From Phytophthora sp. 'mugwort' (taxonomy: Eukaryota; Oomycota; Peronosporomycetes; Peronosporales; Peronosporaceae), in NCBI GenBank assembly GCA_033558025.1, contig JAUCEF010000009.1, forward strand, positions 1,302,001 to 1,366,000: DNA of 64,000 bases, in the 5' to 3' direction. The notes beneath the pieces are model-generated. The model saw only the letters and a list, made by a program, of their open reading frames with translations. It had not been told where the DNA came from and did not search any database. This document shows positions 2,601-60,592 of the stretch, one piece after another. Numbering within the stretch: the first letter of the stretch is position 1; every line of letters starts with the position of its first letter. Both the position numbers and the translations under genes were made by a program.

Positions 2601-5260
2601 TCACAAAAACAGTAGCTATCTCCAGGCGGTGCTGTCACCATGTTTACGTATTTGACCTTCAAAATCACTGGTTTGAAGCAGAAAGACCGGAATCGGCTCG
2701 CGCTCTCGTTGAATGGTTCGCATTAACAGCGCTTGAAGACGTCTGGTCTGCGTCGTGGTTCCAATAACGCAAAAAGGTGTCATCGCATGTGCGTGTGTAT
2801 GTCACAGAGGGAAAATTGAGCGACGGCAGTGGCACCGGCGACGCCACGAAGTGTGACAAGTTAAACACAAGAAAGCAGGGCGAATATGCCTAGTTGAAGT
2901 AAGTCTTGTACTTATGGTATTGCACTTACTTGGTGGATGTTTTTTGTGCAGTAGTCATTGTCATGGTGGGAGACTTGGCCGCGAGCGGTACAGGCAAGGA
3001 AGACACACTGAAGCGGACGAGCCAACACCAAGAAGGCCACAGGTGAGTAAATGTTCGCGTACATAGCACGCGGACGTGGCATGCCGACAACCTTTACATG
3101 AATGATGCACAACAGACAAAATACTGGAAGTAAAGGGAGAAGAGGACACTTTATCGACGCCGAGTAGACAGAAGGTTGGTGCTGCTTTCGAGGGGCCAAG
3201 GAAGCAATAAAACCGAGTCGTGCGAAAACAATTGGAGTATCCGCTAAGCGGCGAGGTAATATTTCTTGTCATAGCAAGAATAATTGAAATTGACAGGTGT
3301 GGCATTGCTGCTGTCGTATAGTAGTGGTGTTCCTACAGTTGCAACCTCTAGAGTATGGAAGCACAAGAAGGAGAGTAGTCGTTTGTGATCAATTATGTGA
3401 AACCTAAACCCTGGTATCAAAGAGAAAACAAACTCAGTGTGCTCTTATATGTATATAGGTGATAGCAAACAGCGAAATATGACTACAACCAAAGCACTGC
3501 TCCGCCGCGCAAACAGTGGAGACCTGCTTTACGATATGAACTTGACGAATGCGCTCCCACTGAAGAACCTTGCACACCTCAACTCCCTAATCTAGAAGTG
3601 AAAATCCTCCGTGAGCGGAGGGGGGGGGGGGGGGTCGGCGCGCGCGCTTTAATCGAAACAGTGATCACAATATCCAGGATAGGATTACGCCGATGCCTCA
3701 CTTGCTACGCCTCGTGGGTGGCTGTTGATGTAGCTATCACATATTACGAAAAGGCTCGAATACGCATTATCGGGGGGGGGAGGTAATGTAGCGTTGCCCC
3801 GCGACCCTGAACGGCCCAACGCTTAGAGGTCGTCCCCCAACCACAGAAAATACGACCGAAGCAATTGCCCGAGCGAGCTGCCCCCAATTCGACATCCTAG
3901 AAAATCTAATGAAATTACTAATGGATACACTTCTAGCCAAAAAAAAAAGCCGCCGCAAAAAATGATGTGGATAGGGGTGAACACGCGAAAAAAGAAAACG
4001 ACCATCGACCACTGGATTCAGGTGAGATGGTTATAAAGTTCAAGGCATCCGGGTCTCTATTCTCGAAGTTTGTACATTATTACGCTAAAGCGGCGCTATT
4101 TGATCGGGATCTGACGTTTTGATTGCTGCGTTTGGCCTCAGCACTTGAGTTAATGCAATTATTAACTTTTATGACTGCAGAAATAAAACTGCACACTTGG
4201 GAGCAGACATGACGTGGTTGAAAGAGGACTGGGCATTGAATGATGACGTGCATGTGGAGTTATTCACATCAGAAGTAGGGGACGAGGGATGACTGGTAAA
4301 CGCATAAGACAGCTGCACTGCCGCCTTGCAGAAGACTTGATCACGAGCTATGTATCGTCCAGTCTGATAAGACACTACTCCATCCCTTTAACGATTGTGA
4401 CGACTTACTTTTGGGAACTGGTGGGGGATCTGGCTGGAAATAAGTGGAGGAATGCCTCCACGGTAAACGTTTCACTTCATGCAATTGAGGGTTCGAGATC
4501 CGATATTCGAGTACTGGCGTCTCGTGGTTTGGGGAACAATCATCCCCCACGCGAAAACAGATACACAAATTGTCAGGGATGACGATTGTCGTTCTCCCTG
4601 TCAATCACAGTGATACACATCGGTCGCCCATTATGGCTACTATCGACCACACACAAGCAAGGATGCTGGGTGTTCATTTTACGATCATCTACCCGTATGA
4701 AGTAGAAATTGAACGCAAATGGAAGGATTCGTTTTGGTCATCCATGCATCGCTGGCATCCTATTGTCGATCCCATGGGGCTAATTGACCTAAACGGCCCG
4801 GTGGGCCTAGTTGTGGTGTTATCATCACGGCTATAGCATATTGGTACGCCCAATGGCTTCAACAATTTGAGCATGACGAAATTGCTAAGGAGACAATCAA
4901 CGACGCGATTATGAATGCTCTGAATGATTTTATGCAGCTTCGTCGTACACAGCATAGAGGCCGAAGATGTAGCTGAAGCAGCGATTGCGGATGCAAAACT
5001 TACGAGTACATTCAAAGAAATAGAATAGGACAAGTCCAATAAAAATGCAGTTAAATACCTGTCAGTAAGGTACGCACCATCATTCGTAGTATTATATTAG
5101 GTGCATTGTACGGAAGCTACATATATTCTCCATTGCCCAATGCTAGCGGAGGATACTATAGCTGTACAATGTAATGCGCTGTCGCTACTTTAGTTGACTT
5201 TATCTACTGATACAGCAGCTCACGGTGCCTGTCGCTTCAAAGGCGCGACTTCAACTAGGC

Positions 5261-38019: not shown

Positions 38020-41000
38020 ATGATTCCGCAGCCGTCTTCGGCAGATCCGCTTCACACCAAGCTCGGAATCACCTTACGAAGAAATTCTCGAAGCTCACGG
38101 GGCTCATTGGTACTTGATCACATCCGAAGTGAGAGCGAGCAGTATTGGCAAGCCTACATTAAGGTCGACGAGTTGTCGGTACGCGAGCCTCATAGTCGAA
38201 TCTCAGCTGCCAACCTCGAGCAAAGCCATGGTCTGACATTGGCAGAGGTCGAAGAGGTTCGTCGATCATGTGGATATAACCGCTTGTCGCCGCCCAAAGC
38301 TGTGCCGGACTATATTCTGTTTCTACAACAGTTTCTCAACATGTTCATGCTCCTCCTGTCGGCTGCTGCAATTCTCAGTCTCATCGCTTACTTCATTAAC
38401 ACTTCGACAGAGATGAATCTGTACCTGGCTATCCTCCTCTTTGCGGTGGTATTTGGTACTTGTACAGCAACATTTCTTCAGGAACGGTCGACGGGTAAAG
38501 CAATGGATTCATTCAAGAACATGCTACCAGCTCAATGTACGGTCGTGCGTGACGGAATAAATCAAACGATCGCAGCGGAAGAGCTTGTGGTTGGAGACTT
38601 AGTCTGGGTTCGAAATGGCGATAAAGTCCCGGCAGATCTCCGAATCTTACAGTGCAATCATCTCAAGGTCGAGAACTCTTCATTGACAGGTGAATCCGAG
38701 TTGATTTCTCTTACCTCCGACGTTCAGGATCACAGCGTCGCCCATCTCGAGTGCAAGAACATCGCCTTCAACGGTTCCCTGTGCTTTGACGGCGCAGCGC
38801 TGGGCTTGGTGTTGACTATTGGAGATAAGACGGTACTCGGCCAAATCGCTAAGCTTTCGACCTCATCAACCCTTCCTGAAACAAATATGCAGCGCGAAGT
38901 CAAGGCATTTGTGCGTTTTATCGCCATCCTTGCGTTTGTGATGGCTAGCGTCCTCTTTATTCTCGGCGTCATCCACAAGAACGGCGAAGACGTCCTCATC
39001 ACGTTCGTCGATGGTTTCCTAGTGATTCTCGTGGCCAATGTGCCTCAAGGTCTCCACGTCACAGTTACGTCTCTGCTCACAATTACAGCAGGTCGATTGG
39101 CAGCAAAGAATGTGTTTGTGAAGCGCTTGGACTGCGTCGAGACATTGGGCTCCATTTCCCTCATCGCCACCGACAAGACGGGCACGCTAACGAAAAATAT
39201 CATGACTGTGACAGATATTTGGACTGGTCGCGAGTTCTTTGCTCAACCTTCGGAAGAATCTATGGAGATTGTACCAGATACTACGATAGACTATTTGTCG
39301 GGTATGACCCCGAAAGCTGTGCTCACCCGTGGCGCCACACTTTGTAATCGTGCTGCACCAGACATCGCTCGGATGGAAAATATTCAGATTTCTATTGATG
39401 ATTCGGTAGATTTCGGGACTACTCGCAAAATTCGGAGCCCTTCGATAATTCGTGAACAACGGAAGTTAACGACCAAGCGCCAGTATACCGGTAACCCGTC
39501 GGATATCGCGTTGCTTCGCTTTGCAGACCTCAACTTTTCCGCCGATGTGACTCGCCAAGAGTATCCGCTACTCTTTGAGATTCCATTTAACTCGACAAAA
39601 AAGTGGCAGCTCGTCATTGTGCCGGCTCCAGGAGCCAAACTTTCTCGACGCAGCTTTGACGTTTTCATGAAAGGAGCCCCTGAAGTCATCATCAAGCGAT
39701 GCAGCACGATTATGTCGGCAGCAGGCCACGAGATACCGATAAATGACGCAGTGAATAGCGAGTTCTTCCACGCGTACGAAACGTTTGGAAGGAAAGGACG
39801 ACGGGTAATTGCGCTTGCTACACGACGTTTTGAGTCGTCAAGCGCTCAGTTTTCGGCCGAAGATTGCAACTTTCCGTCCGAGGACTTGTGCTTTGTGGGC
39901 ATCACAGCCATCATGGACCCTCCGCGTGACGACGTCCCTACCGCGATTGCTAAGTGCAAGGCGGCAGGGATTAAAGTCTTCATGGTCACTGGTGATCACC
40001 CGTCGACTGGTCGAGCTATTGGTGCGGAGATTGGGCTCCTGGACGAAAATGGACGTGTGTTAGAGCTGTTGGAACCTCCTTCCACGAACGAGACGGTAAA
40101 ACTTCCAGAGGATTTCCACACATATGATGGTGCTGTAGTCCACGGCGGGTTTGTAAACTTACTCTCGGATCAAGATTTAAAGGCGATTCTTCGGTTAAAA
40201 TCCGTCGTATTTGCGCGGACTACCCCTCAGCATAAACTTCAGATTGTCAAAGCGAGTCAAGAGATTGGAGAATGTGTCGGAGTGACTGGAGACGGTGTGA
40301 ACGACGCACCAGCTTTAAAGCAAGCCGACGTGGGCGTTGCCATGGGCAAGAACGGGAGCGATGTCGCTCGACAAGCGGCAGATATCATCCTCATGGACGA
40401 CAACTTTTCGTCCATTGTGCGTGGCGTCGAGCAAGGACGCATTATTTTCGATAACGTCAAAAAGACGATCGCGTACACGTTAACCCACTTGTGGCCAGAG
40501 ATCTTGCCATTAGCCATTTATTTGGCTCTTGGGATGCCCACAGGTATGACTGCCCTCCAGATTTTAAGTATTGATCTCGGCACAGAACTTGGTCCCGCAA
40601 TTTCCATCGCCCATGAAGGAGGCGAACACGACATTATGAACCGTCCACCTCGTAATGTCAAGAAGGACCGTCTCATCTCAAAGTCGTTGCTAGTCTACTC
40701 GTATATTGTCGTGGGGATGATCAATGCCGGTGGCTGTTTGCTCGCATATGGCGCGGTGTTCTGGCGCCATGGCGTCCCGTTTTCAGACTTGTTTATGAGT
40801 GCAGAGGACTATTGGGTTAAGAAAGCGCAGCCACTGTGCATCACAGCCACGGAATGCTTCGACGCTCAAGGCCAGATGACAATACTCGCGGAAGCCTGTG
40901 CTTCATGGTACATTTCGCTGGTTGTTTGCCAGTTTTTCCACATTTGGATGGTTAAATCGCGCCGTACATCGGTAATTAAGGCTGGGATTTTCAAGAACGT

Positions 41001-41226
41001 CGTCACATTGTATGGTGGAGCAATGGAGATGTTAATCGTGGTACTTGTCGTGTACGTGCCTGGCATCCAGTCGTTCTTTGGCACCGCTACCGTTGACTAT
41101 GTGCCATGGCTGATTGGCTGTGGCGCCGGTATCATCACGTGTTTGTACAGCGAAGCTATTAAGGCCGTGGCACGACGACAAGTCCCTGGACAAGAAGACT
41201 GGCTCGCACTATGGGTAGCATGGTAG
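38020..41226 (+). CDS. type IIC P-type ATPase (Na,K/H,K-ATPase alpha-like), copy 1
   Basis: Intronless, 1,068 residues, expected in the plasma membrane to pump monovalent cations with ATP. The actuator TGES, phosphorylation motif DKTGTLTKN (Asp385), nucleotide-site KGAPEVIIKRC, and hinge TGDGVNDAPALKQADVG are all intact. About ten membrane spans are visible, starting with LFLQQFLNMFMLLLSAAAIL. The M4 motif reads PQGL (Gln343) where animal Na,K-ATPases have PEGL. M5 reads YTLTHLWPEI and M6 IDLGTELGPA. Copy-specific changes are PQGLHVTV (PQGLPATV in copies 2 and 3) and GDHPSTGRAIG (GDHPLTARAIA there). The open frame extends upstream to 37897, but that codon is GTG; the first in-frame ATG is 38020. 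A piggyBac element lies 36 bp past the stop. Ion specificity cannot be read directly. Confidence 0.9.
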   Translation: MIPQPSSADPLHTKLGITLRRNSRSSRGSLVLDHIRSESEQYWQAYIKVDELSVREPHSRISAANLEQSHGLTLAEVEEVRRSCGYNRLSPPKAVPDYILFLQQFLNMFMLLLSAAAILSLIAYFINTSTEMNLYLAILLFAVVFGTCTATFLQERSTGKAMDSFKNMLPAQCTVVRDGINQTIAAEELVVGDLVWVRNGDKVPADLRILQCNHLKVENSSLTGESELISLTSDVQDHSVAHLECKNIAFNGSLCFDGAALGLVLTIGDKTVLGQIAKLSTSSTLPETNMQREVKAFVRFIAILAFVMASVLFILGVIHKNGEDVLITFVDGFLVILVANVPQGLHVTVTSLLTITAGRLAAKNVFVKRLDCVETLGSISLIATDKTGTLTKNIMTVTDIWTGREFFAQPSEESMEIVPDTTIDYLSGMTPKAVLTRGATLCNRAAPDIARMENIQISIDDSVDFGTTRKIRSPSIIREQRKLTTKRQYTGNPSDIALLRFADLNFSADVTRQEYPLLFEIPFNSTKKWQLVIVPAPGAKLSRRSFDVFMKGAPEVIIKRCSTIMSAAGHEIPINDAVNSEFFHAYETFGRKGRRVIALATRRFESSSAQFSAEDCNFPSEDLCFVGITAIMDPPRDDVPTAIAKCKAAGIKVFMVTGDHPSTGRAIGAEIGLLDENGRVLELLEPPSTNETVKLPEDFHTYDGAVVHGGFVNLLSDQDLKAILRLKSVVFARTTPQHKLQIVKASQEIGECVGVTGDGVNDAPALKQADVGVAMGKNGSDVARQAADIILMDDNFSSIVRGVEQGRIIFDNVKKTIAYTLTHLWPEILPLAIYLALGMPTGMTALQILSIDLGTELGPAISIAHEGGEHDIMNRPPRNVKKDRLISKSLLVYSYIVVGMINAGGCLLAYGAVFWRHGVPFSDLFMSAEDYWVKKAQPLCITATECFDAQGQMTILAEACASWYISLVVCQFFHIWMVKSRRTSVIKAGIFKNVVTLYGGAMEMLIVVLVVYVPGIQSFFGTATVDYVPWLIGCGAGIITCLYSEAIKAVARRQVPGQEDWLALWVAW

Positions 41227-45215: not shown

Positions 45216-45260
45216 ATACCAGAGACGCTGCCGCAAAAATCGCGGCAGCGTCTCTGGTAT
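45216..45260. repeat. perfect 19-bp hairpin near the piggyBac right end
   Basis: ATACCAGAGACGCTGCCGC at 45216-45234 is the exact reverse complement of 45242-45260, with a 7-nt spacer AAAAATC. It lies about 70 bp inside the element's right end. It could be an internal transposase-binding palindrome or a terminator-like structure. Confidence 0.8.
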
Positions 45261-47949: not shown

Positions 47950-48720
47950 AAAGTGCGTTTATCCCCGGAATGGGGGGCCCGTACGGCGCGAACGGGCCCG
48001 CTGGGTGGAAAGCACTGCGCACCACTTCTCCGAGATATTGTCCAGCGCCGCCATCGCGCGATCGAACATGTTACGGCGACGCTGAGCGGGTGTCAGCTTC
48101 GCGGGGCGCCCCACACGCGGAGGCAAGGATTGGGTGCGGATGTGCTGTTTCAAAGGGCCCATGATGCCCACATCCAGCGGTTGTGCCACCCCACCCCCAT
48201 GCACCCGTCGGGGACGAATATGACCGCCGTGCCCGTGCAGGCCAACGCATCAAGCACAGGCACCATCTTGTGGACCTGTAGGCTGTCTAAGTTCAGGACA
48301 GAAGGCTCCGTCACAATGCACTTCCACACGTTCTCGATCCAGTCAAGCATGACCTGCAGGTCGAACCACGCTTTCGCCTGGACAGAGAACGTGGTCACTG
48401 AGGCGTCGCATAGCCCCTGAACTCCCTCTCTACGCCACTGCCCGGCTGCCCCATGAACACGAAGTGGGGCGGGAACTTGCGGCCGTCCGCGGCCATGGTA
48501 AGGTCCATCGTGCAGCGATTGCTCCCAGAGCCTTCCGTTGCTGGGGGAACGCAGGTCGCCACCGCAAAGACTACCGTAGTGCGGGGGGAGATGCTGTAGT
48601 AGATCGAAGTCTGATCCATGTTGAAGATGGTGCGTTTGGGGGCGAGGCCAAGGTGGGGGTCGCAGCCATTCGCGTTCTGGGATACCTGAAGTCGACTCGT
48701 GAGCATGGCATTGTGTACCA
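47950..48720 (-). pseudogene. pogo-like DDE transposase relic (copy 2)
   Basis: Minus-strand pieces are FNMDQTSIYYSISPRTTVVF, CTMDLTMAADGRKFPPHFVF, WLDWIENVWK-like text, VLNLDSLQVHKMVPVLDAL, VIFVPDGCMGV and QPLDVGIMGPLKQHIRTQ. This follows the DDE_1 order (NMDQT, LDSLQVHK, IP/VPDG, QPLDVG). It is broken by frameshifts near 48395 and 48200. It belongs to a different subfamily from the relic at 8380-9700, judging by the motif text. Confidence 0.65.
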
Positions 48721-48796
48721 AGGAGGTTCCGGTACGGTTACTGCCGAAGCACCCATGGATGCTGACTAGGGCAGTAACACTGGTGACCGACGTTCC

Positions 48797-49200
48797 GTGT
48801 CTGGTGTCATGGTGATGACTGGGAACGCTCCAGTGGTATTCAAATCGAAGTACCAGAGAACGGTTGCTCTCAGCTCTGCGGAAGCCGAGTACATGGCTCT
48901 AAGCCTTTGCACGCAAGAGGTGATATGGGTACGTACTATGCTGAAGGACATGGGTCGCGACCAAGTGGGAGGAACGCTTGTCTGGAAGGGAACCAAGGTG
49001 CTATAGCACTGGCAAGCAATGCAAGATATCACGCACGGACCAAGCATGTGGATATACGCCACCACTTCATCCGCGAGAATGTGGAACGTGGAACGCTCAA
49101 GGTTAACTACATCGATACGAATCGTCAACTGGCGGACATGCTGACCAAGGGACTGGGAACTAAGACAGCAAGTTCCTGCCTGAACCGACTGGCATCAAGG
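48797..49200 (+). pseudogene. Ty1/copia RNase H fragment
   Basis: The plus-strand frame reads VVFKSKYQRTVALSSAEAEY and MALSLCTQEVIWVRTMLKDM. After a frameshift near 48990 it continues with NQGAIALASNARYHARTKHV, DIRHHFIRENVERGTLKV and RQLADMLTKGLGTKT. This is the C-terminal RNase H part of a copia polyprotein (SSAEAEYMA, TKHVDIRHHFIRE, LADMLTKGL). The rest of the polyprotein is absent; a pogo-like relic lies upstream. Confidence 0.8.
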
Positions 49201-49233
49201 ACAAGGTCACCGTTCCGTAGCAGTGAGTGGGAC

Positions 49234-49457
49234 TGTTGTAATAGCACCGCTCTTGCACGGTTCACTACGGTAAGCGGTCCTCAGAATGGTCCATGCTGAA
49301 CCGCAGGAACGCTCTCCTATTGGCTGAACAGCCATGGGTGGTGAGCAGCGGCTTCAGAAGGACAAGAAGGCTAGGGGGACAACAGAGAGTAGCTTTAGGT
49401 AACTTTATTCTACTCACTTCGGCATTTACCTCCAACATCAACAACCTCGACTCAACA
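49234..49457 (+). repeat. probable copia 3' LTR
   Basis: It follows the RNase H fragment by about 35 bp. It starts TGTTG (49234) and a matching CAACA occurs at 49453-49457, the usual TG...CA pattern. Without a 5' LTR the ends are tentative. Confidence 0.4.
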
Positions 49458-50216
49458 GGCTTAACATGAATAACTAATCTTACAAAAGAGGGGTACCTAA
49501 ACCTCGTGAATGAATCTGAAACTGATCTGTTATCGAGGAAAACGGCAATTCATCGTTGCCAGGGCCTGGCCGACCAGGTCTAGACGGCATGTGCTATCCA
49601 TCTTTATCGATAATGCCGTTTATGTATGTAGAATAGGAATAAAACCATTCACATTACCTTTGCTTAATATGTTTCTCGTATACAGCGGCCTGTTTCAGCT
49701 TCCGAAACGGTGGCCAGCAATACTGTTGAGGCCAGCGTGGGTGGGTGTGCAAAGCGCCGCATGATATGCCGATACGTATCGTCCTTTGGTGGTGGCAAAC
49801 GCCATGGATCCACTGTAGCCGTGATAGAAGACATAAAGCCCCAGGCGTTTCCTAAGCAGTTCCGCGTCCTCATTTACAAAGGTCTGGTCGGGCGCTGACA
49901 GAGAACACTTGGTCTGAAGCTGCACAGCAATAGTAACATAAAATAAGTTTATATGGTTTTAACTTAGAACATAATAGCGTTCAGTACTAAAACTGTCTGC
50001 TAATGCAAAAGCTCGTCGTTTCACTATTTCTTCTGTTAATCAATTTAATAATTGGTTTCCTGTGAAATGCGCGGATTGTCAACACATCATATAAAACCTG
50101 CTATAAAAGAGATATCTGGGTCTTTTCGCAGATTTCCAATCAAAAGGCGTCTGTCCCTCTTTATTACTGTGACAACCAATCAGATGGGATATGAATTGCA
50201 AACTGATTTTGTTATC
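49458..50216. other. no recognisable gene, left flank of the palindrome
   Basis: Open frames up to 84 codons, no motifs recognised. The palindrome begins at 50217; the flank is unrelated to the right flank after 59168. Confidence 0.5.
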
Positions 50217-50366
50217 TATTGATTAGGATTGATACTGGAGAGTGCATTTGAATTTGTTCGCGCATTTTTTGAATTTGAGTGTTGACTTCGTGAATAACGC
50301 CGTGCAATGGTGTAGGCATGTAGTGGGTTTTCCTAAAAGTGTCCAATTACGACAATATAAATCTTT

Positions 50367-53300
50367 CTACCACGCTAACCATCGAGCGAGGCATCGCTCT
50401 TCGCCAGGCACTTCACGACGAGCGAGTGCCTTGATGCTCTCGCTGTAAATGCACGTGATGACACCCGTAGCACAGCCAATCAGCCAGGGCACATAATCAA
50501 CTGCTGCCGTTCCGAAAAACGATTGGATGCCGGGAACGTACACGACAAGTACGACAATGAACATCTCGATCGCGGCGCCATACATCGTCACAATGTTCTT
50601 GCAGATGCTGGTCTTGGTCACAGACGTGCGGCGGCTCTTGACCATCCAGATGTGGAAAAACTGACAGACGATCAGCGCAATGTACCACGAGCCACACGCC
50701 TGCTCCATCAAATACGTTTGCTCAGCTTCGTCAAAGCACTCGCCGTCCGCGGTACAAAACGTGTCGGCGTCGGCCGTCCAGTAGTCATCGTCACTCATGA
50801 ACAGATCTGAAAAGGACACGCCGTTGCGCCAGAAGACGGTACCGTAGGCTAGCAGACAACCAGCGGCGTTGATCATACCGGCGACGGCATACGCGTAGAT
50901 CAGCAGAGACTTGGACATGAGTCGGTCCTTGTTCAGGTCGCGCGGTGGACGCTGCATGATATCGTGTTCTGCACCTTCGTAGGCGATCGAAATGGCGGGG
51001 CCCAGTTCCGTACCGAGATCGATACTCAAGATTTGCAACGACGTCATGCCCGAGGGCATTCCCAGCGCCAAGTTGATCGCCACCGGCATGATCTCGGGCC
51101 ATAAGTGCGTCAACGTGTATGCGATCGTCTTCTTGAGGTTATCAAAGATCACACGGCCTTGCTCCACGCCACGCACGATCGACGAGAAGTTGTCGTCCAT
51201 CAGGATGATATCCGCAGCTTGTCGAGCCACGTCACTGCCGTTCATTCCCATGGCGACGCCCACGTCCGCCTGCTTCAGTGCTGGTGCGTCATTCACGCCG
51301 TCTCCCGTTACACCCACACACTCCCCCAGTTCCTGACTGGCCTTTACAATCTCGAGTTTGTGCTGGGGCGTCGTACGAGCAAACACGACGGATTTTAGAC
51401 GCAGAATGGCCTTCAGGTCGTCATCTGACAGGTAGTTGAGAACACCGCCGTGCACGACTGCACCATCGTACATGTCCAGATCAACAGGCAGTCCGGCAGT
51501 ATCACTAAGCGACGTGGGTGTCAATAACTCCAACACGCGACCGTAGTCGTTAAGGAGACCGATCTCTGTCGCAATGGCACGGGCCGTCAGTGGGTGATCA
51601 CCAGTGACCATAAACACCTTAATGCCAGCGTGTTTGCACTTCGCGATGGCGTCCGGGACGTCGTCTCGAGGAGGGTCCATGATCGCTACCATGCCGACAA
51701 AGCAAAGATTCTCTGACGGAAAGTTGGCCTTGTCCACGGAGAATGCCGCAGTTGGGGAGTCAAACCGGCGTGTTGCTATTGCCAGAACTCGACGGCCCTT
51801 GCTGCCAAACAATTCGTACGACTCGGTAAACTCGCGTATGAGCGCGTCATCCATCGGAAGCTCGTCGCCTGTTGCCGACAGGATCGTGCTGCATCGCTTG
51901 ATGATCACCTCAGGTGCACCTTTCATGAACACGTCGAAACTGCGCTGTCTACTTTTCTCTCGTGGGGCGGGGACGATCACTAGTTGCCACTTGTTTGTCG
52001 AATTAAAGGGGATCTCAAACACCAGCGGGTACTCCTCGCGGGTAATGTCGGACGTGTAGTTGGCGTCCGCGAAGCGGAGCAGGGCAATGTCGGACGGATT
52101 GCCGGTGTATTGGCGCTTGGCCACGACCTTGGGCTGCTCGCGTACCGAGACGTGGCTTTGGAAGCTGAGACGAGAGAGGCTGAAGGAGCTTCTAGCTGCG
52201 GACAAATGGGCCCCACCGATCATTTTCTCTTCTGTAGCATCCACTGACGCATCGGCATTCAGCGTCTTGTGCTCTGGCGCAGTGACGTCTGGAGCTGCAC
52301 GGTTACATAGTGCAGCTCCACGGACCAGTAGCGCCTTTGGAGTGGTTCCGGACAAGTAGTCGGTCCGGTTGTCCAGCTCAATGACCACACGGTCTCCGGA
52401 CGGCTGCGCTGCGAATTCTCGACCAGCCCACGTGTCTGTCACCGTCATCACGTTCTTCGTCAGCGTTCCGGTCTTGTCCGTTGCAATCAGCGAGATGGAC
52501 CCCATCGTCTCAACACAGTCGAGACGCTTCACGAAAATGTTACGCGCCGCCATCCGACTCGCCGTAATCGTCAGCAGTGACGTCACCGTGGCTGGCAACC
52601 CTTGAGGCACGTTCGCTACAATTATCACCAAGAAGCCATTTACGAACGTCGAAATCACATCTTCACCTCCTTTGCGAATGACACCAATAGCAAATAGGAT
52701 ACCAGCCATAACTACCGCAAGGACACTAATGAAACGAACAAACGCCTTCACTTCGCGTTGCATGTTGGTCTCACGTGTAGTAGTGGACGTGGCAAGCTCA
52801 GCGATGCGACCGATGACCGTCTTGTCACCGATCGTCAGCACCAGACCCAACCCGGATCCATCGAAACACAACGAACCGTTGAACACTACGTTCTTACACT
52901 CCAAGTGGGCCACTGAGTCCTCCTGGACATCCGACGTGATGGTGACCAGCTCGGATTCACCCGTGAGCGACGAGTTCTCCACTTTGAGATTGTTGCAGAG
53001 CAGAATGCGGAGGTCCGCGGGAACTTTGTCGCCGTTGCGCACCCAAACCAAGTCGCCCACCACGAGCTCCTCAGCTGGGATCGTCTGGCTCACGCCGTCA
53101 CGTACCACTGTGCACTGCTGCGGAAGCATGTTCTTGAACGAATCCATCACTTTGCTCGTCGAACGCGCCTGTAGGAACGTGATGGTGCACGTGACGATCA
53201 CAATGGCGAATAACACCAGCGACAGATATAGGTTTAGCACTGTCGACGTGTCGATGAAGTAGGCAATGAGGCTCAAAAGACCCGCTACGGACAGCAAGAT

Positions 53301-53612
53301 CATGAACATGTCGACGAATTGTTGTAGGAACAGGATGTAGTCGGGCACGGTCTTGGGCGGGGACAGACGGTTAAACCCACACACTTTCCGGACGTCGTCG
53401 ACATTCGCCGAGTTGAGGCCTTGACTCTGCTCGAGGTTGGTGGGTGAAATGCGACTACGAGGTGCACGGGTCAGGAGATCTTCAACTTCCACGTACGCTT
53501 CCCAGTACCGTTCGTCCTCACCCCCTCGAGTACTGCCTCCAGTCTTAGGGGTAAGGGGCATAGCCGTGAACTCGGTGTGCCTTGAGTCCGTCATGGGGGA
53601 CTCCAGGGTCAT
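50367..53612 (-). CDS. type IIC P-type ATPase, copy 2 (left palindrome arm)
   Basis: Intronless, 1,081 residues, protein identical to copy 3. It should be a plasma-membrane cation pump. It has TGES (217-220), DKTGT (Asp379), KGAPEVIIKRC, TGDGVNDAPALKQADVG, and M6 IDLGTELGPA (Asp865, Glu869). M4 is PQGLPATV (Gln337) and M5 YTLTHLWPEI (His836, Glu840). It differs from copy 1 in the N-terminus and at M4 (PAT versus HVT). An open frame continues 125 codons upstream to 53987, but a perfect oomycete initiator lies in it at 53714-53729, so the first 125 codons are not expected to be in the mRNA-encoded protein. The start at 53612 is MTLESPMTD. Confidence 0.9.
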   Translation of the reverse strand: MTLESPMTDSRHTEFTAMPLTPKTGGSTRGGEDERYWEAYVEVEDLLTRAPRSRISPTNLEQSQGLNSANVDDVRKVCGFNRLSPPKTVPDYILFLQQFVDMFMILLSVAGLLSLIAYFIDTSTVLNLYLSLVLFAIVIVTCTITFLQARSTSKVMDSFKNMLPQQCTVVRDGVSQTIPAEELVVGDLVWVRNGDKVPADLRILLCNNLKVENSSLTGESELVTITSDVQEDSVAHLECKNVVFNGSLCFDGSGLGLVLTIGDKTVIGRIAELATSTTTRETNMQREVKAFVRFISVLAVVMAGILFAIGVIRKGGEDVISTFVNGFLVIIVANVPQGLPATVTSLLTITASRMAARNIFVKRLDCVETMGSISLIATDKTGTLTKNVMTVTDTWAGREFAAQPSGDRVVIELDNRTDYLSGTTPKALLVRGAALCNRAAPDVTAPEHKTLNADASVDATEEKMIGGAHLSAARSSFSLSRLSFQSHVSVREQPKVVAKRQYTGNPSDIALLRFADANYTSDITREEYPLVFEIPFNSTNKWQLVIVPAPREKSRQRSFDVFMKGAPEVIIKRCSTILSATGDELPMDDALIREFTESYELFGSKGRRVLAIATRRFDSPTAAFSVDKANFPSENLCFVGMVAIMDPPRDDVPDAIAKCKHAGIKVFMVTGDHPLTARAIATEIGLLNDYGRVLELLTPTSLSDTAGLPVDLDMYDGAVVHGGVLNYLSDDDLKAILRLKSVVFARTTPQHKLEIVKASQELGECVGVTGDGVNDAPALKQADVGVAMGMNGSDVARQAADIILMDDNFSSIVRGVEQGRVIFDNLKKTIAYTLTHLWPEIMPVAINLALGMPSGMTSLQILSIDLGTELGPAISIAYEGAEHDIMQRPPRDLNKDRLMSKSLLIYAYAVAGMINAAGCLLAYGTVFWRNGVSFSDLFMSDDDYWTADADTFCTADGECFDEAEQTYLMEQACGSWYIALIVCQFFHIWMVKSRRTSVTKTSICKNIVTMYGAAIEMFIVVLVVYVPGIQSFFGTAAVDYVPWLIGCATGVITCIYSESIKALARREVPGEERCLARWLAW

Positions 53613-53713
53613 CGTGTATAAGAGTTGGTACTGTAGTAGGCGGAAGTACGTGCAGGGAGGGAGGTTGGTTGCAGGTCTTCGAAGCTGCTGGTGGTTCTTG
53701 CGGATGCCGAAGC

Positions 53714-53729
53714 AAATTGAGAAATGAGC
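53714..53729 (-). promoter_or_regulatory. oomycete initiator of ATPase copy 2
   Basis: On the minus strand, GCTCATTTCTCAATTT is a full match to GCTCATTYBNCAWTTT and is followed by GC, as in the flanking promoter region. It lies about 100-115 nt upstream of the ATG at 53612. Confidence 0.75.
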
Positions 53730-54574
53730 TTCATGGCTAGCGACAAAGATGGCAGCGAGTGCATTCGAACGAGGCATTGTCTGAGTGGACAGCGAGGCCA
53801 GCAGTATCGTTGGCAGGTCTGCCGTGGGCGCGTCGTACGGCGTTGTCCCGATATCTTCGCCCAAGTATGAGGCCATTCGTACGGCAATGTACGCGGAAAC
53901 TCCCAGTCGGAAAAGTAGAGGGGCGGGTGGTTTTCCCCTCCCGATGCCACCAACAGCGCTGCAGCAGCTTAACCAGTGGGTGCGCATTCATTTTCAACAC
54001 GAGAGCGTAGATGCCGATGACTACGACCCCGAAATACTAGTTTAGCTCGAAAGTAATCAGCCGAACACAGCATGTACAAACAGGCCATCTATGCATCGGT
54101 CTCCGTAGTCAAAAGCCTTCCGATTCGGAAGTTCCGAAGCTTACGTATGACACTTATGTGATTTAACGGAATAGTGTCTGATAAGGTTTTGATACTTCTG
54201 GGGTGTAAACGGAGATAAATGATAGTTGCACCCAACCGTATTCGCAAGGGTATTATATTCGGAGATACGTACGTGTCTCATAGGAGGGATGACCTTGCTG
54301 GCTCAGTGCGTACTGAATCTTTATGTGGGATGGGCGAGGTGCTTTGCAGCTAAAGCGTACTGGCATTTCTGCAACCCTTGAAAAGATCCTGACTACATGC
54401 ATGCGGTGCTAGATGATGTTGCAAGCTCCTGAACCGCTCAGTGCGTGTTTCATCGGAATTCAAGGCTTTTTCTCGTGTGCGTCGGATTCGTTCACCAAGG
54501 GGCCAGTGCAACTATGTCGTACGGCATTGTCCCGATAATATGGCGTCACTAGAGTCCATCGTACGGCGCTGTAC

Positions 54575-54810
54575 ACTTAATGCGTAGTTCCCTCCACTGA
54601 GCGACAGCACGTTCGTACGGCAACTTCCAGCCAGGAACACCGAAAGAACTCACACCATCTTTTAGTATTTTAATCTTCCTTTCTATTATTTATGCTGAGT
54701 CCTTCGTAGCACTTCGTTCCGGTTTAACATTTGACGGTGTTCACGGCTGGAAGTTGAGGCCGTATGAGCGTGCCTTTGGACAACGGGGGAACCACCCATC
54801 TTCGATCGGG
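54575..54810. other. palindrome spacer with decayed inverted halves
   Basis: The 236-bp spacer does not match perfectly. Its outer parts do align when one side is reverse complemented: GTAGTTCCCTCC near 54585-54596 with GTGGTTCCCCCG on the other side, GCACGTTCGTACGG with GCACGCTCATACGG, then CAACTTCCAGCC and GAACACCG on both. Only the central ~90 bp (about 54646-54737) is unpaired. No gene is called here. Confidence 0.75.
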
Positions 54811-55655
54811 GTACAGCGCCGTACGATGGACTCTAGTGACGCCATATTATCGGGACAATGCCGTACGACATAGTTGCACTGGCCCCTTGGTGAACGAATC
54901 CGACGCACACGAGAAAAAGCCTTGAATTCCGATGAAACACGCACTGAGCGGTTCAGGAGCTTGCAACATCATCTAGCACCGCATGCATGTAGTCAGGATC
55001 TTTTCAAGGGTTGCAGAAATGCCAGTACGCTTTAGCTGCAAAGCACCTCGCCCATCCCACATAAAGATTCAGTACGCACTGAGCCAGCAAGGTCATCCCT
55101 CCTATGAGACACGTACGTATCTCCGAATATAATACCCTTGCGAATACGGTTGGGTGCAACTATCATTTATCTCCGTTTACACCCCAGAAGTATCAAAACC
55201 TTATCAGACACTATTCCGTTAAATCACATAAGTGTCATACGTAAGCTTCGGAACTTCCGAATCGGAAGGCTTTTGACTACGGAGACCGATGCATAGATGG
55301 CCTGTTTGTACATGCTGTGTTCGGCTGATTACTTTCGAGCTAAACTAGTATTTCGGGGTCGTAGTCATCGGCATCTACGCTCTCGTGTTGAAAATGAATG
55401 CGCACCCACTGGTTAAGCTGCTGCAGCGCTGTTGGTGGCATCGGGAGGGGAAAACCACCCGCCCCTCTACTTTTCCGACTGGGAGTTTCCGCGTACATTG
55501 CCGTACGAATGGCCTCATACTTGGGCGAAGATATCGGGACAACGCCGTACGACGCGCCCACGGCAGACCTGCCAACGATACTGCTGGCCTCGCTGTCCAC
55601 TCAGACAATGCCTCGTTCGAATGCACTCGCTGCCATCTTTGTCGCTAGCCATGAA

Positions 55656-55671
55656 GCTCATTTCTCAATTT
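55656..55671 (+). promoter_or_regulatory. oomycete initiator of ATPase copy 3
   Basis: GCTCATTTCTCAATTT is a full match to the initiator consensus, followed by GC. It lies about 115 nt upstream of the ATG at 55773 and mirrors the motif at 53714-53729. Confidence 0.75.
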
Positions 55672-55772
55672 GCTTCGGCATCCGCAAGAACCACCAGCAG
55701 CTTCGAAGACCTGCAACCAACCTCCCTCCCTGCACGTACTTCCGCCTACTACAGTACCAACTCTTATACACG

Positions 55773-58700
55773 ATGACCCTGGAGTCCCCCATGACGGACT
55801 CAAGGCACACCGAGTTCACGGCTATGCCCCTTACCCCTAAGACTGGAGGCAGTACTCGAGGGGGTGAGGACGAACGGTACTGGGAAGCGTACGTGGAAGT
55901 TGAAGATCTCCTGACCCGTGCACCTCGTAGTCGCATTTCACCCACCAACCTCGAGCAGAGTCAAGGCCTCAACTCGGCGAATGTCGACGACGTCCGGAAA
56001 GTGTGTGGGTTTAACCGTCTGTCCCCGCCCAAGACCGTGCCCGACTACATCCTGTTCCTACAACAATTCGTCGACATGTTCATGATCTTGCTGTCCGTAG
56101 CGGGTCTTTTGAGCCTCATTGCCTACTTCATCGACACGTCGACAGTGCTAAACCTATATCTGTCGCTGGTGTTATTCGCCATTGTGATCGTCACGTGCAC
56201 CATCACGTTCCTACAGGCGCGTTCGACGAGCAAAGTGATGGATTCGTTCAAGAACATGCTTCCGCAGCAGTGCACAGTGGTACGTGACGGCGTGAGCCAG
56301 ACGATCCCAGCTGAGGAGCTCGTGGTGGGCGACTTGGTTTGGGTGCGCAACGGCGACAAAGTTCCCGCGGACCTCCGCATTCTGCTCTGCAACAATCTCA
56401 AAGTGGAGAACTCGTCGCTCACGGGTGAATCCGAGCTGGTCACCATCACGTCGGATGTCCAGGAGGACTCAGTGGCCCACTTGGAGTGTAAGAACGTAGT
56501 GTTCAACGGTTCGTTGTGTTTCGATGGATCCGGGTTGGGTCTGGTGCTGACGATCGGTGACAAGACGGTCATCGGTCGCATCGCTGAGCTTGCCACGTCC
56601 ACTACTACACGTGAGACCAACATGCAACGCGAAGTGAAGGCGTTTGTTCGTTTCATTAGTGTCCTTGCGGTAGTTATGGCTGGTATCCTATTTGCTATTG
56701 GTGTCATTCGCAAAGGAGGTGAAGATGTGATTTCGACGTTCGTAAATGGCTTCTTGGTGATAATTGTAGCGAACGTGCCTCAAGGGTTGCCAGCCACGGT
56801 GACGTCACTGCTGACGATTACGGCGAGTCGGATGGCGGCGCGTAACATTTTCGTGAAGCGTCTCGACTGTGTTGAGACGATGGGGTCCATCTCGCTGATT
56901 GCAACGGACAAGACCGGAACGCTGACGAAGAACGTGATGACGGTGACAGACACGTGGGCTGGTCGAGAATTCGCAGCGCAGCCGTCCGGAGACCGTGTGG
57001 TCATTGAGCTGGACAACCGGACCGACTACTTGTCCGGAACCACTCCAAAGGCGCTACTGGTCCGTGGAGCTGCACTATGTAACCGTGCAGCTCCAGACGT
57101 CACTGCGCCAGAGCACAAGACGCTGAATGCCGATGCGTCAGTGGATGCTACAGAAGAGAAAATGATCGGTGGGGCCCATTTGTCCGCAGCTAGAAGCTCC
57201 TTCAGCCTCTCTCGTCTCAGCTTCCAAAGCCACGTCTCGGTACGCGAGCAGCCCAAGGTCGTGGCCAAGCGCCAATACACCGGCAATCCGTCCGACATTG
57301 CCCTGCTCCGCTTCGCGGACGCCAACTACACGTCCGACATTACCCGCGAGGAGTACCCGCTGGTGTTTGAGATCCCCTTTAATTCGACAAACAAGTGGCA
57401 ACTAGTGATCGTCCCCGCCCCACGAGAGAAAAGTAGACAGCGCAGTTTCGACGTGTTCATGAAAGGTGCACCTGAGGTGATCATCAAGCGATGCAGCACG
57501 ATCCTGTCGGCAACAGGCGACGAGCTTCCGATGGATGACGCGCTCATACGCGAGTTTACCGAGTCGTACGAATTGTTTGGCAGCAAGGGCCGTCGAGTTC
57601 TGGCAATAGCAACACGCCGGTTTGACTCCCCAACTGCGGCATTCTCCGTGGACAAGGCCAACTTTCCGTCAGAGAATCTTTGCTTTGTCGGCATGGTAGC
57701 GATCATGGACCCTCCTCGAGACGACGTCCCGGACGCCATCGCGAAGTGCAAACACGCTGGCATTAAGGTGTTTATGGTCACTGGTGATCACCCACTGACG
57801 GCCCGTGCCATTGCGACAGAGATCGGTCTCCTTAACGACTACGGTCGCGTGTTGGAGTTATTGACACCCACGTCGCTTAGTGATACTGCCGGACTGCCTG
57901 TTGATCTGGACATGTACGATGGTGCAGTCGTGCACGGCGGTGTTCTCAACTACCTGTCAGATGACGACCTGAAGGCCATTCTGCGTCTAAAATCCGTCGT
58001 GTTTGCTCGTACGACGCCCCAGCACAAACTCGAGATTGTAAAGGCCAGTCAGGAACTGGGGGAGTGTGTGGGTGTAACGGGAGACGGCGTGAATGACGCA
58101 CCAGCACTGAAGCAGGCGGACGTGGGCGTCGCCATGGGAATGAACGGCAGTGACGTGGCTCGACAAGCTGCGGATATCATCCTGATGGACGACAACTTCT
58201 CGTCGATCGTGCGTGGCGTGGAGCAAGGCCGTGTGATCTTTGATAACCTCAAGAAGACGATCGCATACACGTTGACGCACTTATGGCCCGAGATCATGCC
58301 GGTGGCGATCAACTTGGCGCTGGGAATGCCCTCGGGCATGACGTCGTTGCAAATCTTGAGTATCGATCTCGGTACGGAACTGGGCCCCGCCATTTCGATC
58401 GCCTACGAAGGTGCAGAACACGATATCATGCAGCGTCCACCGCGCGACCTGAACAAGGACCGACTCATGTCCAAGTCTCTGCTGATCTACGCGTATGCCG
58501 TCGCCGGTATGATCAACGCCGCTGGTTGTCTGCTAGCCTACGGTACCGTCTTCTGGCGCAACGGCGTGTCCTTTTCAGATCTGTTCATGAGTGACGATGA
58601 CTACTGGACGGCCGACGCCGACACGTTTTGTACCGCGGACGGCGAGTGCTTTGACGAAGCTGAGCAAACGTATTTGATGGAGCAGGCGTGTGGCTCGTGG

Positions 58701-59018
58701 TACATTGCGCTGATCGTCTGTCAGTTTTTCCACATCTGGATGGTCAAGAGCCGCCGCACGTCTGTGACCAAGACCAGCATCTGCAAGAACATTGTGACGA
58801 TGTATGGCGCCGCGATCGAGATGTTCATTGTCGTACTTGTCGTGTACGTTCCCGGCATCCAATCGTTTTTCGGAACGGCAGCAGTTGATTATGTGCCCTG
58901 GCTGATTGGCTGTGCTACGGGTGTCATCACGTGCATTTACAGCGAGAGCATCAAGGCACTCGCTCGTCGTGAAGTGCCTGGCGAAGAGCGATGCCTCGCT
59001 CGATGGTTAGCGTGGTAG
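55773..59018 (+). CDS. type IIC P-type ATPase, copy 3 (right palindrome arm)
   Basis: 1,081 residues, no intron, protein identical to copy 2. It runs away from copy 2, so the two share a head-to-head arrangement, with about 2.2 kb between their ATGs. All catalytic motifs are intact (DKTGT Asp379, TGES, TGDGVNDAPALKQADVG). Membrane-site residues are Gln337 in M4, His836 and Glu840 in M5, Asp865 and Glu869 in M6. An upstream in-frame ATG exists at 55398 (125 codons earlier), but it lies before the perfect initiator at 55656, so it is not used as the start here. No N-terminal targeting peptide is evident. Identical copies should make the same pump; duplication may raise dosage. Confidence 0.9.
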   Translation: MTLESPMTDSRHTEFTAMPLTPKTGGSTRGGEDERYWEAYVEVEDLLTRAPRSRISPTNLEQSQGLNSANVDDVRKVCGFNRLSPPKTVPDYILFLQQFVDMFMILLSVAGLLSLIAYFIDTSTVLNLYLSLVLFAIVIVTCTITFLQARSTSKVMDSFKNMLPQQCTVVRDGVSQTIPAEELVVGDLVWVRNGDKVPADLRILLCNNLKVENSSLTGESELVTITSDVQEDSVAHLECKNVVFNGSLCFDGSGLGLVLTIGDKTVIGRIAELATSTTTRETNMQREVKAFVRFISVLAVVMAGILFAIGVIRKGGEDVISTFVNGFLVIIVANVPQGLPATVTSLLTITASRMAARNIFVKRLDCVETMGSISLIATDKTGTLTKNVMTVTDTWAGREFAAQPSGDRVVIELDNRTDYLSGTTPKALLVRGAALCNRAAPDVTAPEHKTLNADASVDATEEKMIGGAHLSAARSSFSLSRLSFQSHVSVREQPKVVAKRQYTGNPSDIALLRFADANYTSDITREEYPLVFEIPFNSTNKWQLVIVPAPREKSRQRSFDVFMKGAPEVIIKRCSTILSATGDELPMDDALIREFTESYELFGSKGRRVLAIATRRFDSPTAAFSVDKANFPSENLCFVGMVAIMDPPRDDVPDAIAKCKHAGIKVFMVTGDHPLTARAIATEIGLLNDYGRVLELLTPTSLSDTAGLPVDLDMYDGAVVHGGVLNYLSDDDLKAILRLKSVVFARTTPQHKLEIVKASQELGECVGVTGDGVNDAPALKQADVGVAMGMNGSDVARQAADIILMDDNFSSIVRGVEQGRVIFDNLKKTIAYTLTHLWPEIMPVAINLALGMPSGMTSLQILSIDLGTELGPAISIAYEGAEHDIMQRPPRDLNKDRLMSKSLLIYAYAVAGMINAAGCLLAYGTVFWRNGVSFSDLFMSDDDYWTADADTFCTADGECFDEAEQTYLMEQACGSWYIALIVCQFFHIWMVKSRRTSVTKTSICKNIVTMYGAAIEMFIVVLVVYVPGIQSFFGTAAVDYVPWLIGCATGVITCIYSESIKALARREVPGEERCLARWLAW

Positions 59019-59619
59019 AAAGATTTATATTGTCGTAATTGGACACTTTTAGGAAAACCCACTACATGCCTACACCATTGCACGGCGTTATTCACGAAGT
59101 CAACACTCAAATTCAAAAAATGCGCGAACAAATTCAAATGCACTCTCCAGTATCAATCCTAATCAATACTTCAGTATTCCTAAAAATAGATATTGTGACT
59201 GCGCGGGAAGAGGAGAGGGACTATTGGCAGCAGGTGATGCATATGGGCGTTACGTATACTTGCAGAGGCGGAAGGAAGAGGGGGGAGTGAAGAGGATCAA
59301 ACATGGCGGCAGCGATCAACGGCGAATCACACTACAGAACGTACGGGGATTCACAGAGTCGAACCGTCACAAATGGCTGAGAGTTTGGAGATGAACGCCG
59401 GTCAAAGAGAGACCGATAGCCTGGTTAATCCAGGAAACGCATACAACCAAGGAAGAGGAAGTCGCGAAGCTGACTACGTCCTGGTGAAGACTATGGGGGA
59501 AACCATACGAAATTCCGGGATATCAGTCACTCACGCAAGAAAAGCCGAAGGCTGCGCAGAGTACAGTATCCGATAAATTCGGCGCAACCTGAGAGGATCC
59601 AAGAAGAGCTACTGGGTAA

Positions 59620-60584
59620 TTGATAGAAGCGGAGGTGGGAAAGGATGTCATGCTTCAAAATTGGGACACCACAGCTCGAGAGTGTGTCAAATGCATCCAA
59701 AGGGTAGCGGATCATGAAAAACAAAGACGGAAAGCAACAGTACATCGCATCAACGCGCAGCATCGGGCGCACTTGTTGACGCCACGAGAACTATTGCAAG
59801 TGTCTGAAGCGGACGTCCAAGAGGAGCTACTAGTCAGGACCGGACAGCGGCTAGAGAACAACGGAACAACTGCGGTGGAAGTTCAAGCGGGTCTCCAATT
59901 GGGAAAAAGACCAAACGATAACAACAATCAGGTGCATCAATGAGGAGCCTTTCGAGAGAGGAATGACAATTGCAGATCAATTCTCGTCGGAATAGAAACC
60001 AGTTTTAGGGGTAGTACACAGTCAAGTGGCGAGGAGGACATGGAAGCCGAATTCGACAAATTCGTCAGAATTCCAGATGAGCGTCGCGTTTCTCCACAGC
60101 AAAATGGGGAGTTGATGAAAGAAATCACGTCAGAAGAAGTGATCCAGGCAATAGCAGATCTGAACCGTCACAAAGCAGCAGGCGCTGACGGATTAAACAA
60201 TGACTTTTACAAAGACGCCCAGGCGGTGTTAGTATCGGCGGCAATAGGTAACGAGTTGCTGAGGGGAGGGAATCCCCGGCGTCATTTCTCGAGGGCATGA
60301 TAATTCCGTTACGAAAGATAGGGGATTCTGCTGACGCAACGGACTTCAGGCCGATCTCGCTATTGCAAACGGGATACAAGTGTACACAAAGGTCATAGCT
60401 ACTCGAGCACAGAAGGTAATGGGCACACCGATCGGGGACTCCCAGCAAGGGTTTGTTCATGGCCGTCAAATGCTTAAGACCGTGACGATGATGTTAGCTA
60501 TCCTGGCAACAGCATCCAATGAGCCCGAGCTCGTAGCGGCGCTCAGTCAAGTGATCCTATTATTGCTGGACTTCAGAAAAGCGT
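59620..60584 (+). pseudogene. LINE ORF2 fragment: reverse-transcriptase N-terminal half
   Basis: 59620-59943 encodes a charged linker typical of the stretch between endonuclease and RT. It continues in other frames with EITSEEVIQAIADLNRHKAA and GADGLNNDFYKD (about 60118-60210), then [20 protein letters not shown] (about 60314-60370) and [17 protein letters not shown], and ends at [12 protein letters not shown] where a hAT element interrupts it. Several frameshifts. RT continues at 62742. The LINE lies about 450 bp past the palindrome edge. Confidence 0.75.
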
Positions 60585-60592
60585 ATGATACA

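Follow-up and report, generated by a model that had tools for sequence, protein, structure and literature searches.

An exact palindrome of two identical P-type ATPase genes in Phytophthora sp. 'mugwort', probably old and kept identical by gene conversion

A 64,000-nucleotide stretch of the genome of the oomycete Phytophthora sp. 'mugwort' (assembly GCA_033558025.1, contig JAUCEF010000009.1, positions 1,302,001 to 1,366,000; hereafter the window, with positions counted from its first base) carries two divergent genes, B1 and B2, for a P-type IIC ATPase within an exact inverted repeat. This palindrome is probably a real, old inverted duplication of the ATPase gene whose two arms are kept identical by intrachromosomal gene conversion. 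The genome searches reported here covered the 86.26-Mb assembly in 154 contigs, of which contig C9 contains the window. The features discussed are collected in Table 1.

The arms match at 4,358 of 4,358 positions, with zero differences in both coding and noncoding DNA, and the 95% upper bound of their divergence is 0.07%. This identity extends to the 1,112 noncoding bases of the arms and to every synonymous site. Chance cannot account for so extensive a match. The first-pass annotation of the window had described a near-perfect 4.36-kb palindrome, which even understates the case. The remaining long self-matches in the window lead only to a third, diverged paralogue at 38.0-41.2 kb, gene A, which is 71-74% identical to B1/B2 in DNA and 74% identical in protein. 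A third full-length copy of the arm was not present among the best 40 of 53 candidate matches in the genome. No further inverted repeat of at least 200 bp and at least 90% identity was seen in 338 kb comprising the window and the fetched loci, which partly overlap.

B1 and B2 both run from ATG to TAG, and their DNA is identical throughout. The earlier description of two identical 1,081-residue type IIC ATPase genes, each with its own initiator, is thus borne out. The open frame reaches 125 codons further upstream, giving 1,206 residues in total. The longer start was rejected and the 1,081-residue start is preferred, because the extension is found in none of nine aligned homologues. The B protein passes the cut-offs of six Pfam families of the P-type ATPase superfamily (one of them without any single stretch passing alone) and contains the catalytic DKTGT motif as DKTGTLT. 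Its nearest relatives in the database are Phytophthora proteins, with a P. pseudosyringae protein at the top (87% identity; best 120 of 3,314 matches). The closest oomycete relatives are 80-87% identical, and the gene is conserved within this group. Among solved structures, animal Na,K-ATPase alpha chains come closest. Some positions that we take to be ion-binding sites of the animal Na,K-ATPase were examined in B (window 55773-59018) and are partly kept; the glutamate of PEGL is replaced by glutamine, and the aspartate of GTD by glutamate. Because residues differ at some of these positions, the transported ion is not certain, and the ion specificity of B may differ from that of the animal enzyme. 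The function of the pair is probably ordinary, namely extra dosage of a predicted cation pump, and any benefit of keeping two copies would probably lie there.

A tree of 36 proteins places A and B in separate groups, both of which also contain other Phytophthora or downy mildew proteins (support of 100/100 for the fork with A and 91/97 for the fork with B). Since these groups are separate and each spans several species, A and B are, on this phylogeny, old paralogues, and B1/B2 were doubled separately. The upstream regions of the two genes show weak homology to each other. The guanine-cytosine (GC) content at third codon positions is 0.679 in B versus 0.547 in A. GC-biased conversion has been described in palindromes (PMC3723533, PMC8981503). 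The higher value in B may reflect such a bias, as its direction is the expected one, but this single comparison proves nothing.

The outer edges of the arms bear on the age of the structure. Each arm ends, over its outermost 99 bp, in TE0, a dispersed repeat resembling miniature inverted-repeat transposable elements (MITEs), which lies about 50 bp behind the stop codon of B. Thirty-five of the 41 listed genome matches of the arm fall within these 99 bp. Continuation of TE0 past the right arm end (59168) is supported by four of six TE0 copies (p <=0.005, shuffle test), whereas continuation past the left arm end is supported by none of the six. These six copies were picked from 16 fetched loci as those whose match reaches near the edge; most others match further in. 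At the left edge, the arm directly borders a DNA transposon, TE1. A search with positions 49900-50230 gave 17 genome matches, the query itself included. Eight of the 12 fetched TE1 loci keep the element up to a TA dinucleotide at the exact arm edge and then diverge. In the window, this TA occupies positions 50217-50218, the first two bases of the arm. In the remaining four loci, the element is either slightly degenerate at the edge (L041) or stops short of it (L038, L036 and L039). The best-kept full-length copies are L035 (TAGATAAC...GTTATCTA) and L033 (TAGATAAC...GTTGTCTA), and the others are more decayed. Its ends, with the TA, make TE1 a candidate for a TA-targeting DNA transposon of the Tc1/mariner-like type. 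A second TE1 end was sought elsewhere in the window and was not found.

The simplest reading of these edges is that TE1 jumped into the TE0 of the left arm and that the right arm retains the empty site. A duplication that ended by chance at the exact terminal base of TE1 is much less likely. The left boundary was therefore rejected as a duplication breakpoint, since TA-flanked TE1 ends exactly there. Clean breakpoints had been annotated at both flanks; the left one is the end of a transposon at a TA dinucleotide and not the end of the duplicated segment. Because TE1 ends at the boundary and the right arm keeps TE0 uninterrupted, the insertion probably took place after the duplication.

TE1 meets the long terminal repeat (LTR) of a Copia remnant at position 49459, and both elements have accumulated private changes. 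In the window copy of TE1, 31 of 481 sites are private substitutions (6.4%), counted where the remaining four or five copies with sequence at that site are unanimous; the other copies carry 2.5-12%. A less strict count, which took ten rows at a 75% majority and was partly misaligned over a deletion, yields 77 of 667 (11.5%); the stricter count is used here. The Copia remnant has 28 private sites among 636 where four copies agree (4.4%). In its four relatives, private sites amount to 3.5-5.2% and the two LTRs of an element are 5.7-8.6% diverged, which corresponds to 2.9-4.3% per lineage. Because the private sites of the relatives resemble their LTR divergence per lineage, they can stand in for age fairly, if roughly. 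With 3% per lineage, the noncoding part of the arms (1,112 bases) should show approximately 67 differences; it shows none. Even at a cautious 0.5% per lineage, 11 differences are expected, and the probability of finding none is 1.5e-5. The 5' LTR of the Copia element was sought up to 59 kb leftward, and no score exceeded the shuffle maximum. From the nesting, the order of events would be formation of the palindrome, insertion of TE1, insertion of Copia and truncation of the latter. TE1, Copia and the decay of the spacer together suggest that the duplication is most likely older than the identity of its arms implies.

The spacer between the arms was annotated as asymmetric, which did not hold up. 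It is itself a decayed palindrome, in which the two halves, aligned with two small indels, match in 49 of 62 columns. The local score of this repeat is 45, while the scores of 1,000 letter shuffles averaged 14 and peaked at 24. At the inner arm edge (54574/54811), identity drops from 100% to approximately 79%. Provided that the spacer repeat belongs to the duplication, this would be an abrupt edge between an identical core and a diverged homologue. The repeat fits an old palindrome whose innermost part was not copied, although it is not decisive alone. An internal repeat of the arm extends into the right half of the spacer too weakly to be used.

Table 1. Features of the window around the palindrome
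Feature	Position	Strand	Remarks
Left arm	50217..54574	-	4,358 bp; exact reverse complement of 54811-59168
Right arm	54811..59168	+	4,358 bp; exact reverse complement of 50217-54574
Spacer	54575..54810		236 bp between the arms
Decayed inverted repeat, left half	54580..54642	+	pairs with 54735-54799
Unpaired palindrome centre	54643..54734		92 bp
Decayed inverted repeat, right half	54735..54799	-	pairs with 54580-54642
ATPase gene B1	50367..53612	-	P-type IIC, 1,081 codons; the reading frame stays open upstream as far as 53987
ATPase gene B2	55773..59018	+	1,081 codons, P-type IIC; identical to B1
ATPase gene A	38020..41226	+	1,068 codons; old paralogue of B1/B2
TE0, inner part (dispersed MITE-like repeat)	50217..50315	+	outer end of left arm; interrupted at the TA by TE1
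TE0, right copy	59070..59203	-	passes the arm end by ~35 bp; putative empty site
TE1, DNA transposon	49460..50216	+	right end is the left palindrome boundary; left tip and an internal piece gone
Copia 3' remnant	48662..49459	+	abuts TE1 ~30 bp inside TE1; 5' part lost
Copia LTR	49234..49459		226 bp; 34 genome matches including itself
Decayed repeat sequence beyond right arm	59210..60592		29 matches including itself, mostly 65-73%; one genome match up to ~59503, many from ~59726

These observations can be combined into the following history. An ATPase gene, together with its upstream region and the TE0 behind its stop codon, would have been duplicated head to head around a short centre. TE1 would then have jumped into the left-arm TE0, at the outer edge of that arm, and cut off any homology further out, and Copia would have inserted into TE1 and later been truncated. 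Conversion would proceed by copying from arm to arm during the repair of a break or a replication fork, in whichever direction and however often this may have occurred. The converted block would be the uninterrupted homology between the edge of the spacer and the TA into which TE1 inserted. The last full-length copying event would have been too recent for any difference to remain, while approximately 70 bp beside the centre would have escaped copying and then decayed.

Several points weigh against this history. Two of the six TE0 copies lend no support to a continuation at the right edge, and in a genome search with this edge only two of five other TE0 copies cross it (77-78% identity), the other three stopping at or before it. 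The left tip of TE1 with its second TA, as well as the remainder of TE0, was not found leftward within up to 59 kb, where scores did not exceed the shuffle maximum. The placement of the TE1 insertion after the duplication is probable, and it draws on the exact coincidence at the left edge and on the state of the right side. Private substitutions partly predate the insertion of the element that carries them. In a second control for the spacer repeat, 2,000 random pairs of window segments gave a mean score of 14.5 and a maximum of 126, which is above 45; this maximum is presumably due to true repeats in the window. The spacer repeat could also be an ancestral quasi-palindrome that seeded the duplication. 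Finally, the identity of the arms is known from one assembly of one isolate.

Such a quasi-palindrome is central to an alternative in which the duplication is young. A broken or stalled 3' end would have folded back at the imperfect inverted repeat of the present spacer, copied the arm and rejoined. An imperfect repeat at the edge between arm and spacer is what fold-back priming needs, the arms have zero differences, and the abundance of TE0 makes a switch into another copy of it conceivable. However, the copied tract would have to end on the left at the terminal TA of an unrelated transposon, with TE0 continuing on the right at the same base. TE1 and Copia at this edge also carry several percent of private change, and recency cannot produce the three other ATPase pairs described below, in which diverged edges surround identical blocks. 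A recent fold-back is therefore unlikely. An assembly artefact is less likely still. Perfect identity across 4.4 kb in a single assembly could stem from a chimeric read, from the joining of two haplotypes at the gene, or from consensus polishing in which the sequence of one arm replaced that of the other. An artefactual fold-back would return along the same flank, but the 24.8 kb to the right and the 60.2 kb to the left share no inverted homology; they have only four short matches of 68-76%, all on the same strand. A fold-back between haplotypes was rejected for this reason. The flank comparison disfavours an artefact but is not proof. In addition, one outer junction has the look of an occupied transposon site and the other that of an empty one, the spacer is a decayed palindrome with no clean turn, and the matches listed for the genome hold no third full-length arm. 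Polishing, in our judgement, removes a few differences at most. Identity through purifying selection on each copy independently, without conversion, is extremely improbable. The conservation of the gene in oomycetes would agree with it, but the noncoding bases and all synonymous sites are identical as well. The first-pass annotation had left three origins side by side. Maintenance by conversion is favoured among them, while a recent duplication is opposed by the diverged TE1 and Copia at the edge and an assembly fold-back by the non-matching flanks.

Conversion between neighbouring ATPase genes is also indicated elsewhere in this genome. Three further pairs were picked by eye from a genome protein search (best 38 of 62 candidates). 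On contig C18 (3313000-3322600, L048), a divergent pair with heavy-metal-associated domains (one member scanned) shares 3,150 bp at 99.9% identity and 1,047 consecutive identical residues. The C-terminal tails of 54 and 65 residues have diverged yet are homologous (score 75; maximum of 45 in 5,000 shuffles), and the N-termini are unlike. On C13, two genes with ATPase domains (one member scanned) form an inverted pair approximately 40 kb apart (378700-382300, L051; 421500-425100, L052). They differ at 77 positions in the first 605 bp and at three in the next 2.9 kb. A direct pair of ATPase-like genes lies approximately 15 kb apart on C16 (3295400-3298000, L053; 3310680-3313280, L054). This pair contains a 1,211-bp block (835-2045 of L053) with one mismatch and clearly diverged flanks on both sides: 126 columns differ up to position 1042, the mismatch of the block included, and 166 differ in the last 556 bp. 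The longest mismatch-free run is 1,003, and random placement of the differences never gave a run above 108 in 2,000 trials. The BLAST line, according to which the C16 pair would be evenly 89% identical, was rejected in favour of a block with diverged flanks. Identical blocks whose edges are diverged but still homologous are what conversion produces, and a new duplication does not produce them. The three pairs are therefore taken as converted, and their alignments indicate that conversion occurs in this genome. They were chosen for proximity and like scores, so they demonstrate occurrence, and a frequency is not inferable from them.

The orientation of such pairs was compared in an exploratory count, which was devised after seeing the data and in which the pairs are not independent. 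Equal domain bit scores served as a proxy for identity, which overlooks partial conversion such as the block on C16. Within 50 kb, six of 16 inverted pairs of ABC transporter genes have equal scores, versus one of 17 direct pairs (p 0.039). The corresponding counts are six of 14 versus one of 14 within 30 kb (p 0.077), and five of 10 versus one of 10 within 15 kb (p 0.14). The ABC set comprised 101 matches, from which 15 below 100 bits were dropped, and the matches on C12 were counted as separate genes. When ABC and P-type ATPase pairs are taken together, nine of 20 inverted pairs and one of 19 direct pairs have equal scores (Fisher p 0.008). Neighbouring ABC genes with opposite orientation and identical domain scores occur at C7:7903342/7911844, C1:669793/674990, C11:2535568/2545314, C12:3617425-3626042 and C8:429374/455923. 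These pairs are candidates for the same conversion process.

A tentative and rather doubtful generalisation is that neighbouring paralogues of large transporters (P-type ATPases and probably ABC proteins) are under pervasive conversion at the kilobase scale in both orientations, with orientation setting its extent. Homogenisation of inverted pairs would then span most or all of the gene and leave lasting palindromes, and direct pairs would have partial tracts only. The conversion tract in the direct C16 pair makes this generalisation less probable. A stricter version, in which only inverted pairs are homogenised, was rejected, as the direct C16 pair has its 1,211-bp block with one mismatch. 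A review on C. elegans cites a proposal that conversion is commoner between paralogues of like orientation, though proximity may confound this (PMC3966223). If the generalisation were true, palindromic pairs of identical genes would be a standing feature of oomycete genomes.

Gene pairs in long inverted repeats are known from other organisms. In C. elegans, divergent or convergent paralogue pairs lie in such repeats at the hsp-16 locus and at F44E5.4/F44E5.5 (PMC1803023). At the F44E5.4 locus, the arms are 2,207 bp long and 99.7% identical, with a spacer of 126 bp (PMC1803023). The pair described here resembles these loci in its inverted identical genes, its kilobase-long arms and its short, faster-evolving spacer, and conversion is one of the mechanisms proposed for them (PMC1803023, PMC3966223). 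In contrast, a three-species comparison showed the age of the C. elegans pairs, and selection for a structure is a further explanation favoured in that study (PMC1803023). Here, the age is deduced from nested transposons in a single genome, and the genes encode P-type ATPases of an oomycete. The primate Y palindromes (P1-P8) are similar in that arm identity above 99.9% is ascribed to conversion with multi-kilobase tracts and that the spacer diverges faster (PMC3723533). They differ in that the arms of P6 extend for approximately 100 kb and reside on a haploid, non-recombining sex chromosome (PMC3723533), and nothing of this kind is indicated here. In Phytophthora, mitotic recombination is known (PMC6414701), a 2001 paper takes up the subject, to judge by its title, in P. 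sojae, and recombination or gene conversion has been reported for effector paralogues of P. ramorum (PMC3820680). These precedents concern alleles or effector families, whereas the present case is an inverted pair of pump genes. No report of a conversion-maintained palindrome in an oomycete was found among the top-ranked results in the open-access full-text literature. Conversion-kept inverted gene pairs are thus a known process, and Phytophthora pump genes are an unusual place for it.

Transposons nested at the edge of one arm can serve as an age stamp within a single genome, and conversion becomes inferable without a second species. Together with the pairs on C18, C13 and C16, the palindrome suggests concerted evolution of neighbouring transporter paralogues in this lineage. 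As a caution, identical neighbouring genes in Phytophthora are not automatically fresh duplicates or assembly errors.

Some minor observations were made alongside. On the window's plus strand, the sequence TCGTACGGC is confined to the palindrome, at 53833, 53877, 54517 and 54559 in the left arm, upstream of the gene, and at 54613 in the spacer. It is mirrored four times in the right arm and is possibly a spread regulatory or repeat motif. Matches of the Copia LTR on C5 (7922849-7967717) recur with a period of approximately 9.92 kb and equal identities, with four units on one strand and one on the opposite strand, which suggests recent tandem and inverted amplification. A small hairpin, a self-complementary stretch of 45 bp at 89% identity, lies at window positions 45216-45260.

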